A stretch of 64,000 nucleotides of DNA from Hyphomicrobiales bacterium (GTDB lineage: Bacteria > Pseudomonadota > Alphaproteobacteria > Rhizobiales > Rhizobiaceae): contig UBXV01000019.1 of assembly GCA_900469625.1 (NCBI GenBank), forward strand, positions 62,001 through 126,000, in the 5' to 3' direction. A program made the position numbers and the translations under genes. The notes beneath the pieces are model-generated. The model was not told the origin of the DNA, made no database searches, and was given only the letters and a program-made list of their open reading frames with translations. Below, piece by piece: positions 4,462-62,778 of this stretch; positions within the stretch are counted from its first letter, which is position 1; each line of letters opens with the position of its first letter.

Positions 4462-5640
4462 TTAGGCCGCAGCCTGCGACAGCGTCGCCTTCTGGGTCTC
4501 GAAAGCCCAGGTCAGCCATGGCATCAGGGCCGCCATGTCGGATGCCTCGATCGTGGCGCCTGCCCAGATCCGAAGACCGGACGGTGCGTCGCGATAGTGG
4601 CCGATGTCGAATGCGACACCTTCCTTTTCGAGGAGGGCGACGACGCCCTTGGCGAAGGCCGACTGGCCGTCGGCATCAAGCGCTGCGACGTCCTTGTCGA
4701 CGATCTTGAGGCAGACCGAAGTGTTGGAACGGGTCTCGTCCTTGACAGCCAGGTTGGCGATCCAGCCGTTGGCGTCGACGAAGTCGAAGATCACCTGAGC
4801 ATTGGCATCGGCGCGCGCCATCAGGCCCTTGAGCCCGCCGACCTTCTCGGCCCAGACCAGCGCATCGATATAGTCCTCGACGCACAGCATCGACGGCGTG
4901 TTGATCGTCTCGCCGGTGAAGATGCCTTCGATCAGCTTGCCGCCAGACGTCATGCGGAAGATCTTCGGCAGCGGCCAGGCCGGCACATACGTCAGCAAGC
5001 GTTCGACGGCGCGCGGCGAAAGAATGATGACGCCATGTGCGCCTTCGCCACCGAGAACCTTCTGCCAGGAGAAGGTGACGACGTCGAGCTTGGTGAAATC
5101 GAGGTTCTGCGCAAACGCGGCCGAGGTCGCGTCGCAGATCGTCAGACCCTTGCGGTCGGCCGGGATGAAATCGGCGTTTTCGACGCGAACGCCGGAGGTC
5201 GTGCCGTTCCAGGTGAAGACGACGTCACGGTCGAAATCGACCTTGGAGAGATCGGGAAGTTCGCCGTATCCGGCTTCGAACTTGCGAACGTCGGCGAGCT
5301 TCAGCTGCTTGACCACGTCGGTCACCCAGCCGGCGCCAAAGCTTTCCCAGGCGACCATGTCGACGCCACGCTGACCGAGCAGCGACCAGAGCGCCATTTC
5401 GACGGCGCCGGTATCGGAAGCGGGCACGATGCCGATGCGGTAATCGGCCGGCACTTCAAGAATGTCACGGGTAAGATCGATGGCCTGCTTGAGCTTCGTC
5501 TTGCCGACCTTGGCGCGGTGCGAACGACCGAGCGGAGCGTCGGAGAGAGCTTCGAGCGACCAACCGGGGCGCTTCGAGCAAGGGCCAGAAGAAAAATGGG
5601 TGTTGCTCGGACGGAGGTCCGGCTTGGCAGGCTTCGTCAT
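4462..5640 (-). CDS. serC: Phosphoserine aminotransferase
   Basis: PLP-dependent transamination of 3-phosphohydroxypyruvate with glutamate to phosphoserine, step two of serine synthesis. At 392 residues it is a class V aminotransferase of the alphaproteobacterial type; the PLP-binding lysine is Lys194 in [10 protein letters not shown]. It starts [13 protein letters not shown], with the SD sequence held in the hairpin loop just upstream. It is the first gene of the serC-serA unit, and the leader at 5641-5688 probably controls its translation. Confidence 0.97.
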
Positions 5641-5688
5641 GTGCTATCCTTCCAGATAGATAGCCCTTCGTTGGGGAAGGGTGTCCCG
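5641..5688 (-). promoter_or_regulatory. serC leader RNA motif (two hairpins, SD in loop)
   Basis: Read on the minus strand, the short leader has two consecutive hairpins: CCCTTC/GAAGGG (5664-5681) and GCTATC/GATAGC (5643-5664), sharing one base at 5664. The second hairpin ends 2 nt before the serC ATG, and its loop holds the purine-rich GGAAG. This matches the published serC RNA motif of Alphaproteobacteria (Corbino et al. 2005), described upstream of serC-serA operons. Masking of the ribosome site is inference from the fold; no ligand is known to me. Confidence 0.8.
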
Positions 5689-5694
5689 CCGTCG

Positions 5695-5804: not shown

Positions 5805-6647
5805 TTACCAGAACGAGAACCTGAGACCCGCTCTGAACTCGTGACGGGAAAGCCCGTCATCGAAGCCCTTTGCACCGGTGGCCCCGCCAAGCGCCTCGGC
5901 GCCGAAGCCGAACATCTCGCCGTCGCCGATATGCGAATAGCGGTAGCCGACATCGACCTTCAGGCGGTCGCTGAGGTCATAGGAGACGCCGGCCATCAGG
6001 GCGTAGGTGAAACGCCAGCTGTCGCGACCATCAAAGGAGACGCCGGCTGGCGCGCCGCCGCAGGCGCCACCACCGGCAACGCAAGCTTCGCTGGCGAAAG
6101 TCGTGTTCCAGCGCAGATTGGTCGCGCCGATACCAGCGCCGAGATAGGGCGTGAAGCCGGCAAGCGTTCCGAAGTCAACATAGGCGTTAGCCATGAGACC
6201 GAGCGCCGAGAAATCCGCCGTGGAAGAAAAGGCGCAGGACGTACCGGCGCCCTGCCCGGCGCAAGGGTTCGCCGAAAGCGACGAACCGTCGAAGCGGCCC
6301 TCGAAATAGTCGGCGGTCAGATCGGCGCGGAACGTATCGGTGATCTGGTAACCGAGGCCGATCGTGCCGGAGAGCGGCTTGTCGAAGCGCGCACTATCGA
6401 ACGGAATGGCGCTGTAGCTACCGGTGCCGGCATCATATGTGCGGTAGGAAGGATCGCCCTCGTTGCGCCAGCCGCTATAACCGATGTCGCCACGGATGTA
6501 GAGGCCGTTGCTGCCGGTCGCCTCCTGGGCGATGGTGATTTCTGGGGCGTCGATCGGGGCCTCGTCGGCGGCAAGCGCCGAGCCCGAAGCAAGAAGGCCG
6601 ATACCGAACGCGGCTCCGCAGATCCCGTTTCGCCATTCCATGCCCAT
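5805..6647 (-). CDS. Outer-membrane beta-barrel protein (Omp25/Omp31/opacity type)
   Basis: A 280-residue protein with a signal peptide (hydrophobic stretch to about residue 26, cleavage near SALAADEAP) and an eight-strand-barrel pattern of alternating aromatic residues. Typical phrases are GLYIRGDIGYSGW, YQITDTFRADLTADY and ANAYVDFG, and it ends in FSFW, the usual C-terminal aromatic barrel signal. It resembles the rhizobial and Brucella Omp25/Omp31-like family and is paralogous to the next gene. Three nearby ATGs (6647, 6641, 6636 region) are possible; all leave the signal peptide intact. A CtrA-type box lies 83-97 bp upstream. Confidence 0.88.
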   Translation of the reverse strand: MGMEWRNGICGAAFGIGLLASGSALAADEAPIDAPEITIAQEATGSNGLYIRGDIGYSGWRNEGDPSYRTYDAGTGSYSAIPFDSARFDKPLSGTIGLGYQITDTFRADLTADYFEGRFDGSSLSANPCAGQGAGTSCAFSSTADFSALGLMANAYVDFGTLAGFTPYLGAGIGATNLRWNTTFASEACVAGGGACGGAPAGVSFDGRDSWRFTYALMAGVSYDLSDRLKVDVGYRYSHIGDGEMFGFGAEALGGATGAKGFDDGLSRHEFRAGLRFSFW

Positions 6648-6729: not shown

Positions 6730-6744
6730 TTAACTGTCGGTTAA
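6730..6744. promoter_or_regulatory. CtrA-type box upstream of first OMP gene
   Basis: TTAA-N7-TTAA, the full consensus recognised by the cell-cycle regulator CtrA in Alphaproteobacteria, lies 83-97 bp upstream of the ATG at 6647. The paralogous gene has the same motif at nearly the same distance. Binding is inferred. Confidence 0.55.
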
Positions 6745-6833: not shown

Positions 6834-7658
6834 TTACTTGTAGACGATCGGTTCCGGCTCGTAAGGAACTTCGCAGACGTTGCCGAAGGAGTAACGCAGG
6901 CCGGCACGTGCCTCGTGGATGTTGAAGCCCTTGTCGTAGCCCGGGCCGCCGCCATTGGCGTAGCCGAACATGTTGCCATCATCCACCTGGCGGAAACGAT
7001 AGCCGACGTCAGCCTTGAGATTGCAGGTCAGGTCGATGGCCGTACCGGCCATCAGCGCATAGGTGAAGCGCCACTTGCTCTCGCCGTCATGCTCCGTCGT
7101 CGGGTCGCAGGCAGCCGGGTTGCTGACGCTGCAGCTGGTGTTGCGCAACTTGTCCCACTTGACGTGGGTGGCGCCGACACCGGCACCGACATAGGGCGTG
7201 AAGGCGCCATAGGTGCCGATATCGACATAGGCGTTGGCCATCAGGCTCCATGCGGAAACCGAGGTGACGTCGCGCGATACGCAGGGACCGGCCACGGAGC
7301 CGCAGAAGCCGAGCGTCGACCCGGTAAAGTCGCCGCCACCCCAGTAATCGGCCGTGACGTCGGCACGGAAGTAGTTGTTGAACTGGTAACCGACACCGAC
7401 GCCGGCAACCCAGGAATCGTCAATTTCGGCCGTCGCGAATTCCGCGATGGTGCCGCCCGGTCCGCCCTGGTAGAAATTCGCGCCGCGCAGGTCGTTCCAG
7501 GCATAACCGACATCGCCGCGCAGATACCAGCCGCTGGTCTGGATGACCTCGACCGGCTGCTCGACGATCGGTTCGACAGGCGGTTGGTAAATGTCGGCAG
7601 CAATGGCTGCGGTGCCGCTGAGCAAGACTGCAACAACGCCACTCAAAATTCTCTTCAT
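6834..7658 (-). CDS. Outer-membrane beta-barrel protein, paralogue of the preceding
   Basis: A 274-residue exported barrel protein. The signal peptide is MKRILSGVVAVLLSGTAAIA with cleavage before ADIYQPP. The barrel repeats match the 5805-6647 protein almost phrase for phrase (GWYLRGDVGYAW, YQFNNYFRADVTADY, ANAYVDIGTYGAFTPYVGAG), so the pair arose by duplication. It differs by a short tail after the last strand (VCEVPYEPEPIVYK). The ATG at 7658 has GGAG 8 nt upstream; a TTG at 7670 is less likely. It is separated from its neighbour by a terminator, so each gene has its own promoter. Confidence 0.88.
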   Translation of the reverse strand: MKRILSGVVAVLLSGTAAIAADIYQPPVEPIVEQPVEVIQTSGWYLRGDVGYAWNDLRGANFYQGGPGGTIAEFATAEIDDSWVAGVGVGYQFNNYFRADVTADYWGGGDFTGSTLGFCGSVAGPCVSRDVTSVSAWSLMANAYVDIGTYGAFTPYVGAGVGATHVKWDKLRNTSCSVSNPAACDPTTEHDGESKWRFTYALMAGTAIDLTCNLKADVGYRFRQVDDGNMFGYANGGGPGYDKGFNIHEARAGLRYSFGNVCEVPYEPEPIVYK

Positions 7659-7746
7659 GGCCCACTCCAATACGTTCTGTTGCTTGGTGCACCATGAAAG
7701 TGGTGTCCAAATCCTGACGTTGGCTATGGATAATGAGGGGGAAAGG

Positions 7747-7761
7747 TTAAGCTCGGATTAA
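7747..7761. promoter_or_regulatory. CtrA-type box upstream of second OMP gene
   Basis: TTAA-N7-TTAA lies 89-103 bp upstream of the ATG at 7658, which closely matches the placement in front of the paralogue. A TTAA-N6-TTAA near-match lies 23 bp further upstream. Confidence 0.55.
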
Positions 7762-44198: not shown

Positions 44199-44224
44199 AG
44201 GGGAAGAGGTGCGATCCACACAAC

Positions 44225-44371
44225 CGATGGATATTTTACGATCCCGGGTGCCTACAAACGTAGGTGGGCGCCATATGTCCGGACCCACGGGTCCGGCCAG
44301 GGACAGCTCCCTTGAGATCGAGTATGGCCCCGGGGATTGTGTTTCCTGTCGGGAAGCGCAGACCGCATCCA
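44225..44371 (-). ncRNA. ssrS: 6S RNA
   Basis: Regulatory RNA that mimics an open promoter and sequesters RNA polymerase. On the minus strand a -10 box CTATAT (44374-44379) precedes it. Closing-stem pairs are visible: TGGAT/ATCCA (44367-44371 with 44228-44232) and GCGGTC/GATCGT (44361-44366 with 44238-44243). Inner hairpins include CCTAC/GTAGG, AGGGA/TCCCT and CCGGACC/GGTCCGG. It lies directly downstream of zapA, where alpha- and gammaproteobacterial 6S RNA is found. The exact ends are approximate. Confidence 0.82.
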
Positions 44372-60014: not shown

Positions 60015-61322
60015 ATGATGAGAAAAAACCTGCTCCCCGTCGCCTCTCTCCTGCTGGGCACGCTGTTTCTCTTCCTGGGCAACGGCCTGCAGGGCCTGCT
60101 TCTGCCGGTCAGGGGCACCGCCGAAGGCTACCCCACCACCATCCTCGGCCTGATCGGCACGTCCTGGGCTGCGGGCTTCGTGCTTGGCTGCTTCTTCGCC
60201 CCGAACGTGGTCAAGCGCATCGGCCATGTGCGCGCCTTCAGCGTCTTTTCGTCGCTGATCGCCATCGTCGCGCTGACCACCGGCATCCTGATCGACCCCA
60301 CCTGGTGGTTGATCCTGCGGGCGCTCACCGGCTTCGCCACCGCCGGCACATCGATGATCATCGAAAGCTGGCTCAACGAGCGCGCCACCAATGAGAGCCG
60401 CGGCGTCATCTTTTCCCTCTACATCGCCATCACGCTCTTCGGCGTCGTCGGCGGCCAGATGATGATCCCGTTCGGCGATACCTCGACCAGTACCCTCTTC
60501 ATGATCTGCGGCATTCTCTATTGTGTCGCGATGCTGCCGACGCTGTTGTCGAAAGCCGCAACGCCGCAACCGCTGAAACAGGTCCAGCTCGACCTGCGCG
60601 GGCTCTATCGCAATTCCCCGGTCTCGTTCCTCGGCATCCTGCTCGTCGGTATCGCCAACGGTGCCTTCGGCACGCTCGGTGCCGTTTTCGGCCGCCAGGC
60701 AGGTCTCTCCGACAGCACCGTGGCGGCGATGATGAGCGTGGCGATCTTTGCCGGCGCCGTCATGCAGTTGCCCGCCGGACGCCTCTCCGACCGCATCGAC
60801 CGGCGCTACGTGCTGGCAGCCCTCGCCGCCGTCGGCGCACTTGCGGGGCTCCTGATCTTCCTGGTCGAACCGACCCAGGTCTGGATCGTGCTGACGCTGA
60901 TCGCGATCTATGGCGCCGCGGCCAACGCGCTCTACCCGATCGCCGTTTCGCATGCCAACGACTTCGCGACCGCCGAGGATTTCGTCAAGGTTTCCGGTGG
61001 CTTGCTGCTGCTCTATGGTATCGGCACCATCATCGGCCCGACCATCGGCGGCCCGGTCATGTCCGCAACCGGCCCCTATGGCCTGTTCATGATCACCGCC
61101 TGCGCCCATATTCTCATCACCGCCTACGCCATCATCCGCAGTCGCATGCGTGCACCGGTTCCCGTCGCCGAGCGCGATGCGTTCTCGCCGATCAATGCCG
61201 GCACGACCATGACACCGGAGAGCCTGCAGCTGTCGCCGCGCGCAGCGCCTTTCGACGAAACACACGACGAAGGCGGCGATATCGACCCGGAACAGGAGGA
61301 AAAGCCGAATGGGCCTGTTTGA
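60015..61322 (+). CDS. MFS transporter (YcaD-like)
   Basis: 435 residues, twelve predicted helices. Motif A-like GLSDSTVAA... GRLSDRIDRRYVL in the second half, ESWLNERATNESRG in the first. C-terminal cytosolic tail of about 50 residues is Asp/Glu/Pro-rich. Substrate unknown. The ATG at 60015 (a second ATG is adjacent). Its end overlaps the DUF1192 gene by 14 bp. Confidence 0.9.
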   Translation: MMRKNLLPVASLLLGTLFLFLGNGLQGLLLPVRGTAEGYPTTILGLIGTSWAAGFVLGCFFAPNVVKRIGHVRAFSVFSSLIAIVALTTGILIDPTWWLILRALTGFATAGTSMIIESWLNERATNESRGVIFSLYIAITLFGVVGGQMMIPFGDTSTSTLFMICGILYCVAMLPTLLSKAATPQPLKQVQLDLRGLYRNSPVSFLGILLVGIANGAFGTLGAVFGRQAGLSDSTVAAMMSVAIFAGAVMQLPAGRLSDRIDRRYVLAALAAVGALAGLLIFLVEPTQVWIVLTLIAIYGAAANALYPIAVSHANDFATAEDFVKVSGGLLLLYGIGTIIGPTIGGPVMSATGPYGLFMITACAHILITAYAIIRSRMRAPVPVAERDAFSPINAGTTMTPESLQLSPRAAPFDETHDEGGDIDPEQEEKPNGPV

Positions 61323-61497
61323 CGAAGACCAGCCGAAGAAGAAACTTGCACACGAGATCGGCAGCGACCTGTCCCTGTTGTCGGTCGACGAACTCAGCCA
61401 GCGCATCGCTCTTTTGAACGAGGAAATCGCCCGGCTCGAGGCGGAGCGTGAGCGCAAATCCGCAAGCCGATCGGCCGCCGAAAGCCTGTTTCGCTGA
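61309..61497 (+). CDS. DUF1192-family small protein
   Basis: 62 residues: MGLFDEDQPKKKLAHEIG start, LSVDELSQRIALLNEEIARLEAE, a short coiled coil. A widespread alphaproteobacterial family without a known function. It overlaps the transporter gene by 14 bp and so is co-transcribed. Confidence 0.88.
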   Translation: MGLFDEDQPKKKLAHEIGSDLSLLSVDELSQRIALLNEEIARLEAERERKSASRSAAESLFR

Positions 61498-61535
61498 CGG
61501 CGGCACAAGGACATCCGGACCGAAACGACGCTTTC

Positions 61536-61550
61536 TTAACGGTATATTAA
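61536..61550. promoter_or_regulatory. CtrA-type box 1
   Basis: TTAA-N7-TTAA located just upstream of the putative sRNA. A -10-like TCCTAT lies 17 bp beyond the second half-site hexamer. Confidence 0.55.
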
Positions 61551-61574
61551 GCATTTTCCGCGATAGTCTTCCTA

Positions 61575-61674
61575 TCCGGAGCTTTCCGGACTCAGACAAT
61601 TTCTCCGACTGGCGAATGGGTCTGATTTTTCTCCCTGTTTTACCTTGAGAGCCGCTTTCCGCGGCTCTTTTTTT
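61575..61674 (+). ncRNA. Candidate small RNA with intrinsic terminator
   Basis: About 100 nt with no ORF. Stem-loop 1 is TCCGGA/TCCGGA (61575-61590). Stem-loop 2 is TCAGAC/GTCTGA (61592-61625). A U-rich single strand follows, then a terminator AGAGCCGC/GCGGCTCT (61648-61668) with seven T. A -10-like box and a CtrA-type site precede it. It could instead be the 3' end of the DUF1192 transcript. The exact 5' end is inferred. Confidence 0.5.
61648..61674 (+). terminator. Rho-independent terminator
   Basis: An 8-bp stem AGAGCCGC/GCGGCTCT, 5-nt loop, T7. It ends the candidate sRNA and separates it from the RcdA-like promoter. Confidence 0.9.
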
Positions 61675-61709
61675 GTTTTGTCATAGGGTGCTGCAAAGAA
61701 TTGTGGAGA

Positions 61710-61724
61710 TTAACCCTTTCTTAA
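61710..61724. promoter_or_regulatory. CtrA-type box 2 (RcdA-like gene)
   Basis: TTAA-N7-TTAA 125-139 bp upstream of the ATG at 61849, downstream of the sRNA terminator, so it belongs to the RcdA-like gene. Confidence 0.6.
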
Positions 61725-61848
61725 GAATGCTCTTGCGCGAAATGCGCTATGGCATCATTCTTCAGCCATAGAGGCCGGCAAGGAAACTTTTCCCAAAGCC
61801 GCCCGTTACCCGACTGTCGTGATGCGTTTGAACCAGGGAAAACAGGTC

Positions 61849-62367
61849 ATGTCCGAACGAGGATTGAATACCGTCAGTTTCGCGGGCCACGCGGCGGCGT
61901 CGGCGCAATTCAAGGCGCTCTATTCGGAAGGCATGGGTCTGGTCGAAGAAACGGCGAGCTATCTCGACGGCCCGGGCCGGCTGGCATCCAAGGTCCTGCC
62001 GCGCATGGCGTCGGTGCTCTACGCAGCGGAATCCATGCGCCTGACCACACGCCTGATGCAGATGGCATCCTGGCTCCTGCTGCAGCGCGCCGTCAACAAC
62101 GGCGAAATGAGCCGCGACCAGGTGCTTTCGGAAAAGAGCAAGGTTCGCCTCGACAGCTTCAACGTCGACCGCGCCGCACCGGGCTGGAACGAACTGCCGG
62201 AAGCCTTCCGCGATCTGATCGAGCGCTCGCTGCGTCTGCAGAACCGCGTCGCCCTGCTCGACCGCGAGATCTACCGCCCGCAGGAAGCCTCGACCTTTGT
62301 TCCGGACAACCAGAACGGCGTCAAGGCACAGATCAAGCTGCTCCAGACGGCCTTCGGCACCAACTGA
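61849..62367 (+). CDS. rcdA: DUF1465 protein, probable RcdA (CtrA-degradation adaptor)
   Basis: 172 residues, mostly helical, cytosolic. It matches the family of the Caulobacter adaptor RcdA, which helps ClpXP degrade CtrA: SAQFKALYSEGMGLVEETASYLDGPGR and MRLTTRLMQMASWLLLQRAV are the conserved helices. The start MSERGLN (61849) is preferred over the ATG/GTG at 61819. A CtrA-type box sits upstream, which would give negative feedback. RcdA in Sinorhizobium is reported to be CtrA-regulated; I have not verified identity by alignment. Confidence 0.78.
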   Translation: MSERGLNTVSFAGHAAASAQFKALYSEGMGLVEETASYLDGPGRLASKVLPRMASVLYAAESMRLTTRLMQMASWLLLQRAVNNGEMSRDQVLSEKSKVRLDSFNVDRAAPGWNELPEAFRDLIERSLRLQNRVALLDREIYRPQEASTFVPDNQNGVKAQIKLLQTAFGTN

Positions 62368-62556: not shown

Positions 62557-62778
62557 TTAGAGGCCGAGGCCTTCGAAACGCTTCTTGAACTTGGAGACGC
62601 GGCCGCCGCGGTCCATGAGCTGCTGGTTGCCGCCGGTCCAGGCCGGGTGCGACTTCGGGTCGATTTCCAGGTTCATGGTGGCGCCTTCAGAACCCCAGGT
62701 CGAGCGGGTTTCGTACTCGGTGCCGTCAGTCATGACCACCTTGATCAGGTGATAGTCGGGATGGATATCTGCCTTCAT
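62557..62778 (-). CDS. rpmE: 50S ribosomal protein L31
   Basis: 73 residues: [22 protein letters not shown], then [25 protein letters not shown], diagnostic of L31. It contains no cysteine, so it is the zinc-independent form. It lies in the usual rhizobial position beside an ABC exporter gene on the other strand. Confidence 0.97.

Follow-up and report, generated by a model that had tools for sequence, protein, structure and literature searches.

The 101-nt RNA predicted upstream of rcdA is probably a trans-acting small RNA (sRNA) that is controlled by CtrA through one CtrA-type box and represses a DUF6101 gene, a second box serving rcdA separately. The sRNA itself is already known; what is new here is the pattern of phasing and persistence of the boxes, together with the antisense match to DUF6101. 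The features of the locus are listed below, with coordinates in the window, that is, the whole 64,000-nt stretch of DNA that was analysed:

61309..61497, plus strand: DUF1192 gene, the upstream neighbour (Pfam PF06698, E 8.9e-24)
61536..61550, plus strand: CtrA-type box 1 (TTAA-N7-TTAA, exact match), assigned as the sRNA promoter
61562..61567, plus strand: -10-like hexamer GATAGT, picked by eye (column conservation in 81 loci)
61574..61674, plus strand: predicted sRNA of 101 nt, orthologue of Sm84/SmelC671 (fold, conservation, synteny and a 100-nt transcript published for S. meliloti)
61575..61590, plus strand: stem-loop 1, with a compensatory G-C to A-U change in relatives (fold and alignment)
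61592..61625, plus strand: stem-loop 2 (fold; outer pairs kept in 24/24 aligned relatives)
61626..61646, plus strand: single-stranded core with CUCCCU, the predicted pairing region (fold and conservation)
61647..61674, plus strand: intrinsic terminator, whose 5' arm is also predicted to pair with the DUF6101 leader
61710..61724, plus strand: CtrA-type box 2 (exact in 81/81 loci), assigned as the rcdA promoter
61849..62367, plus strand: rcdA (DUF1465; Pfam and NCBIfam)
62557..62778, minus strand: rpmE (ribosomal protein L31), the downstream neighbour

The sequence-only reading of this region had placed TTAA-N7-TTAA boxes at 61536 and 61710, and both are exact, the 64 kb window holding four such exact matches against 0.04 expected from shuffles. 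It had also described three stem-loops and a strong terminator between the boxes, and the segment 61575-61677 does fold into three stem-loops at -37.5 kcal/mol (z -4.27, with 0/200 shuffles equally stable), the third being the terminator, a hairpin at 61647-61669 followed by a T-run. The gene described as RcdA-like is rcdA by both libraries used, since its product matches Pfam DUF1465 with an E of 5.7e-59 and the NCBIfam equivalog "protease adaptor protein RcdA" with 209 bits for a cut-off of 170. The proposed segment of about 100 nt held in length, but it can be called ORF-free only loosely, because two mechanical ORFs run into it (61448-61648, plus strand, 66 aa; 61192-61599, minus strand, 135 aa). 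The length of the unit varies between 96 and 103 nt in 76 of the 81 loci described below, and the differences are no multiples of three (for the remaining five loci the start was misplaced). Two further exact boxes (6730-6744 and 7747-7761) lie 77-83 nt upstream of the starts of two tandem minus-strand genes, 5805-6647 and 6834-7670, whose products look by eye like outer-membrane beta-barrels, and ctrA is found on the same contig (G000:C37:51018-51620, plus strand), about 10 kb before the window and about 73 kb from rcdA.

Conservation was followed in a close set of 81 loci, made up of the window and the best 80 of 561 RcdA relatives; in that best 80 the closest named ones belong to Ensifer/Sinorhizobium, and the genome of the window is itself Sinorhizobium/Ensifer-like. 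The 23-nt core CTCCCTGTTTTACCTTGAGAGCC and box 2 are exact in all 81 loci, and box 1 is exact in 53, with 7/8 positions kept in 20 and 6/8 in eight. Box 1 is found at 91-97 nt from the sRNA core (sd 1.3) and box 2 at 131-142 nt from the rcdA ATG (sd 2.5), whereas the distance between the boxes ranges from 170 to 278 nt (sd 27), so that each box appears to be tied to its own output. A box at a fixed place of the promoter is what would be expected of a CtrA-regulon member, and this phasing supports the earlier proposal that the sRNA and the adaptor gene are placed for co-control by CtrA. In six Sinorhizobium/Ensifer loci (L036, L037, L038, L040, L042 and L048) the stretch from the terminator of the sRNA to box 2 holds around 100 nt extra. 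The -10-like hexamer begins 11 nt past box 1, and among the 81 loci it is near-invariant only at the A and T of 61563-61564.

The fold was also followed in the alignments. Stem-loop 1, which RNAalifold's alignment misplaced and which was therefore counted in a separate one, has a G-C pair replaced by A-U in relatives, G-U being the intermediate, and 95.8% of its cells are paired, a value reached by 5/500 shuffles; its covariation score was likewise equalled by 5/500, and its two pairs with double-sided changes by 134/500. In stem-loop 2 and the terminator stem RNAalifold found double-sided changes in 0/18 pairs, and hence no compensatory support.

To place the sRNA on the map of S. meliloti 1021 we used as synteny anchors a 6S RNA (44209-44367, minus strand) and a serC leader (5639-5691, minus strand), both above the Rfam cut-off. 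The gene order of the window, which we take to be tkt-gap-hyp-pgk from our own reading of its ORFs, fits the published operon smc03978-81. In strain 1021 the 6S RNA occupies 2972090-2972252 (minus strand) and SmelC671/Sm84 2986421-2986520 (plus strand, 100 nt), an RNA named in PMC3927594, PMC2573895, PMC7143759 and PMC2873474. According to the published passages on Sm84, it lies between SMc03988 and SMc03989, both on its strand; it comes with a terminator and a sigma-70 promoter, the latter predicted, and its expected size is around 110 nt; and its transcript was detected by northern blot, as a band of about 80 nt that is shorter than the 100-nt RNA-seq unit, by RNA-seq and by microarray, in the latter under all six stresses tested. 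The RNA of the window occupies the syntenic place after 6S, on the same strand and between same-strand genes, and from its predicted 5' end it measures 101 nt up to the intrinsic terminator, compared with 100 nt, from predicted start to last T, for the orthologue beside rcdA in S. meliloti 4H41. Synteny, strand and length identify the sRNA as Sm84/SmelC671, although its distance from 6S, which the published coordinates put at 14.2 kb for 1021 and which is 12.4 kb in 4H41, speaks against this. Identity with two other S. meliloti sRNAs is ruled out by their loci: GspR is found near 3.51 Mb, flanked by SMc03844 and SMc03845, whereas EcpR1 has divK-pleD and rpmG as its neighbours.

For a wider search, a covariance model was built from the transcribed part only, and at E <= 0.001 it matched 56/199 genomes of the order, own genome included. 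We fetched 39 of the other 55 matching loci, four of which (L219-L222) come from the same family-level group as the window. An exact CtrA-type box is present upstream of the RNA in 24/39, for 0.50 expected from dinucleotide shuffles, and in 20 of the 35 loci from other families; the remaining 15 keep 7/8 positions in 14 cases and 4/8 in one, L233, which has no rcdA and is probably a false match of the model, although it is still counted in the denominators. A box within 500 nt past the terminator, before rcdA, was found in just 6/39 loci, and in 2/35 from other families. These sequences suggest that the old CtrA site next to rcdA is the promoter of the sRNA. In L229 (G043) the sRNA and an exact box are present, and rcdA was undetected within the 3.5 kb fetched.

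The genomic neighbourhood could also suggest that the RNA is a regulated 5' leader, an attenuator, of rcdA and not a separate RNA, as rcdA follows on the same strand in 37/39 of these loci, within 121-481 nt in 36 and at 1182 nt in one more. We consider this highly improbable, as in all 81 close loci rcdA has its own box past the terminator, the six loci mentioned above carry their extra DNA just between the two, L229 keeps RNA and box with rcdA undetected, and the core matches the leader of another gene, the two varying together from one sequence class to another, as described below. An equally small chance is given to the RNA being nothing but the 3' UTR of DUF1192 or a product of processing of its mRNA, with the terminator belonging to that mRNA. 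The common strand, the 76 nt between the DUF1192 stop and the predicted 5' end, and the published northern band, shorter than the RNA-seq unit, would fit with such an origin; the near-constant distance between RNA and box 1, the partly conserved -10-like element and the predicted sigma-70 promoter of the S. meliloti RNA argue against it, as does the fact that DUF1192 was undetected by tblastn beside 15/39 relatives, a weak test for a 62-aa protein. That the sRNA is an independent one, as the sequence-only reading had it, is supported.

When the window locus was scanned with Rfam, no family reached its cut-off, and the score with BjrC1505 (RF02356) was 24.7 bits for a cut-off of 50. By contrast, 17 of the 20 order-level loci scanned reached this cut-off (L206, L212 and L226 were below), and L221, from the window's family-level group, acts as a bridge with 72.8 bits. 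As the window's copy is below threshold, its kinship with BjrC1505 is drawn from these relatives in other genomes, with which it shares the orthologous place and the core. The RF02356 model spans the CtrA-type box, which probably puts its start upstream of the real 5' end. At the class level, RF02356 matched 23/193 genomes, the G174 match being located elsewhere, and 0/14 control genomes, C. vibrioides being named among them; in the 18 loci fetched, rcdA was downstream in 12 and a box with at least 7/8 positions was found in 17, a count that is biased by the inclusion of the box region in the model and was not used as evidence. On these grounds the sRNA appears to belong to an alphaproteobacterial family, with Sm84/SmelC671 as its Sinorhizobium form and BjrC1505 as its distant members.

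If GATAGT is a real -10 element, box 1 covers the -35 position, and a box over the -35 position is the layout of CtrA-activated promoters. This layout makes it rather unlikely, though by no means negligibly so, that box 1 is a site of repression, or of mere binding, by CtrA and that some other signal is the main driver of the sRNA; such a reading would be favoured by the detection of the S. meliloti RNA under all the stresses reported for Sm84, and the binding motif is silent on the sign of the control. We prefer activation of the sRNA by CtrA at box 1. By the account of a S. meliloti ChIP-seq report, CtrA is found at the rcdA promoter, yet rcdA shows no response when CtrA is depleted, data that concern the rcdA promoter, not box 1 alone, and a strain other than that of the window. 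An old CtrA site that is in fact the sRNA promoter would explain binding without an rcdA response, giving this published puzzle a simple answer. Small RNAs go unmentioned in the main text of that paper; CtrA is unmentioned in PMC3927594 and PMC2573895, both of which name SmelC671 or Sm84; the mentions of CtrA in the passages of the review PMC7143759 concern GspR and EcpR1; and no CtrA dependence of this sRNA was seen in the literature searched. For agrobacteria, multiple transcription start sites and possible CtrA sites have been described upstream of rcdA in all three lineages, and one of these starts could be that of the sRNA. Taken as sequence evidence, the predicted CtrA link of the sRNA is well supported.

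As to its target, 27/29 nt of the core region are antisense to the leader and ribosome-binding region of the DUF6101 gene, which is located elsewhere in the genome, divergent from a DUF1217 gene and adjoining UbiA. In the predicted duplex, pairing extends across the Shine-Dalgarno region as far as the start codon, with an energy of -42.0 kcal/mol versus -34.7 for the best unrelated 80-nt stretch among 6382 others of the window; three window stretches at -64.5, which by our reading are the complement of the sRNA gene itself, were set aside. DUF6101 was found in all 60 genomes searched (60 of the 80 named), and GCTCTCA, the complement of the end of the core, is present in the DUF6101 leader in 61/61, own genome included. 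A search of the own genome with the 19-nt complement gave two perfect matches, the sRNA gene and the DUF6101 leader, and a third with three mismatches, the reversed-pattern control also giving three matches. With the 17-nt complement of the core and up to three mismatches, seven matches (one of them the sRNA gene) were found versus seven for the reversed-pattern control, so this search provides no further target candidate. No DUF6101 match was obtained in 7/30 sRNA-bearing genomes of the order, where other targets must exist if the RNA acts by pairing.

The pairing was then compared between families, in which sRNA and leader differ in sequence: the core group has sRNA CCUUGAGAGCC with leader GGCUCUCAAGG, family f6 has sRNAs such as ACUUCGAGAGC with leader GCUCUCGAAGU (G041), and G162 has sRNA CUCCUGAGAGCC with leader GGCUCUCAGGAG. 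A second DUF6101-like gene was observed in G162 (L262, E 1.4e-43). The pairing of the own sRNA with its own leader beats 100/100 shuffles in 74/84 genomes, in the understanding that the shuffles are crude (permutations of 2-base blocks), that the genomes are related and not independent, and that the leaders of distant genomes were anchored by tblastn and not by annotated starts. All shuffles were beaten in 60/61 genomes of the core group, 2/2 of g47, 1/1 of g48, 3/3 of f43, 2/2 of f13, 5/5 of f6 and 1/1 of f47, and in none of nine genomes from f16 (0/3), f11 (0/1), f27 (0/1), f39 (0/3) and f37 (0/1). The sRNAs were also swapped between the 12 families, with the core group represented by eight sampled genomes. 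Core-group leaders gave -35.4 with their own sRNA versus -26.5 with those of f6, and f6 leaders -38.3 with their own versus -23.6 with those of the core group, the swapped pairing being weaker where the sequence classes differ. The own sRNA ranked first in 5/12 families (g47, g48, f43, f6 and f37), second in the core group, f13 and f27, and 5th to 9th in f47, f11, f16 and f39. Between the better-paired families sRNA and leader thus appear to co-vary, the partners having changed together in part, and a co-varying antisense match to an mRNA start, as expected for a trans-acting sRNA, was found in those 74 genomes and not in f16, f11, f27, f39 or f37. These data make DUF6101 a strong predicted target of the sRNA. 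The protein gave no significant sequence match to solved structures (best E of 0.32), and it is unnamed in the literature searched.

The sequence-only reading had instead pictured an RNA arm of a feedback loop on CtrA. Its location beside rcdA with a CtrA-type box, and the precedents of GspR and CcnA, which act on ctrA according to the published passages, speak for an sRNA acting directly on the ctrA mRNA as GspR does in S. meliloti. The ctrA leaders (-330 to +60) of eight genomes were confronted with their own cores, with 200 shuffles each, and shuffles as stable as the leader were 166, 98, 47, 129, 150, 22 and 119 in seven genomes and eight in G048, the only one that stands out. In 7/8 genomes the ctrA leader pairs no better than shuffles, the conserved partner found is the DUF6101 leader, and direct action on ctrA is very unlikely.

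We propose that box 1, over the -35 region, is most likely the site at which CtrA binds to control, probably by activation, the transcription of the sRNA from a start at or near 61574, box 2 serving rcdA separately. The single-stranded CUCCCUGUUUUACCUU core and the 5' arm of the terminator would then pair with the leader and Shine-Dalgarno region of the DUF6101 mRNA and repress its translation. A single intergenic region would in this way give two CtrA-linked outputs, the adaptor that leads to the destruction of CtrA and, beside it, an RNA by which another gene is shut off. For a broader version we see about even chances, namely that the ancestral CtrA site next to rcdA, in Rhizobiales as well as in some further alphaproteobacteria, is the promoter of the sRNA and not that of rcdA, the sRNA being a long-standing post-transcriptional branch of the CtrA regulon and providing a cell-cycle-timed shut-off of the DUF6101 protein and of other mRNAs through its anti-Shine-Dalgarno core. 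For a catalogued, unstudied sRNA both a regulator and a target now appear likely, SmelC671 and BjrC1505, so far two RNAs under separate names, become linked, and DUF6101 becomes directly testable as a CtrA-linked, RNA-controlled protein.

Compared with known systems, the closest is Sm84/SmelC671 (ReC71 in R. etli), with which the RNA of the window shares the succession of 6S, the SMc03978-81 operon and a same-strand sRNA, as well as a broad distribution in Rhizobiales; the published passages on it give no function, CtrA link or target. BjrC1505 has the same core, terminator and box position, although the window copy is below its threshold. GspR and EcpR1 of S. meliloti are also cell-cycle-linked trans-acting sRNAs, of about 100-145 nt, but with other loci and other neighbours, and GspR pairs with ctrA and cspA5. 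CcnA of Caulobacter, for which a predicted CtrA site and a lower level in a ctrA-ts strain have been described, is a precedent of a CtrA-dependent sRNA, but it is encoded at the replication-origin locus and acts on ctrA and gcrA. Finally, mmgR (RF00519, suhB) has a similar CUCCCU core followed by a terminator, and the window segment 61595-61682 (plus strand) scores 22 bits with its model, whose cut-off of 41 it does not reach; the two RNAs may be distant kin.
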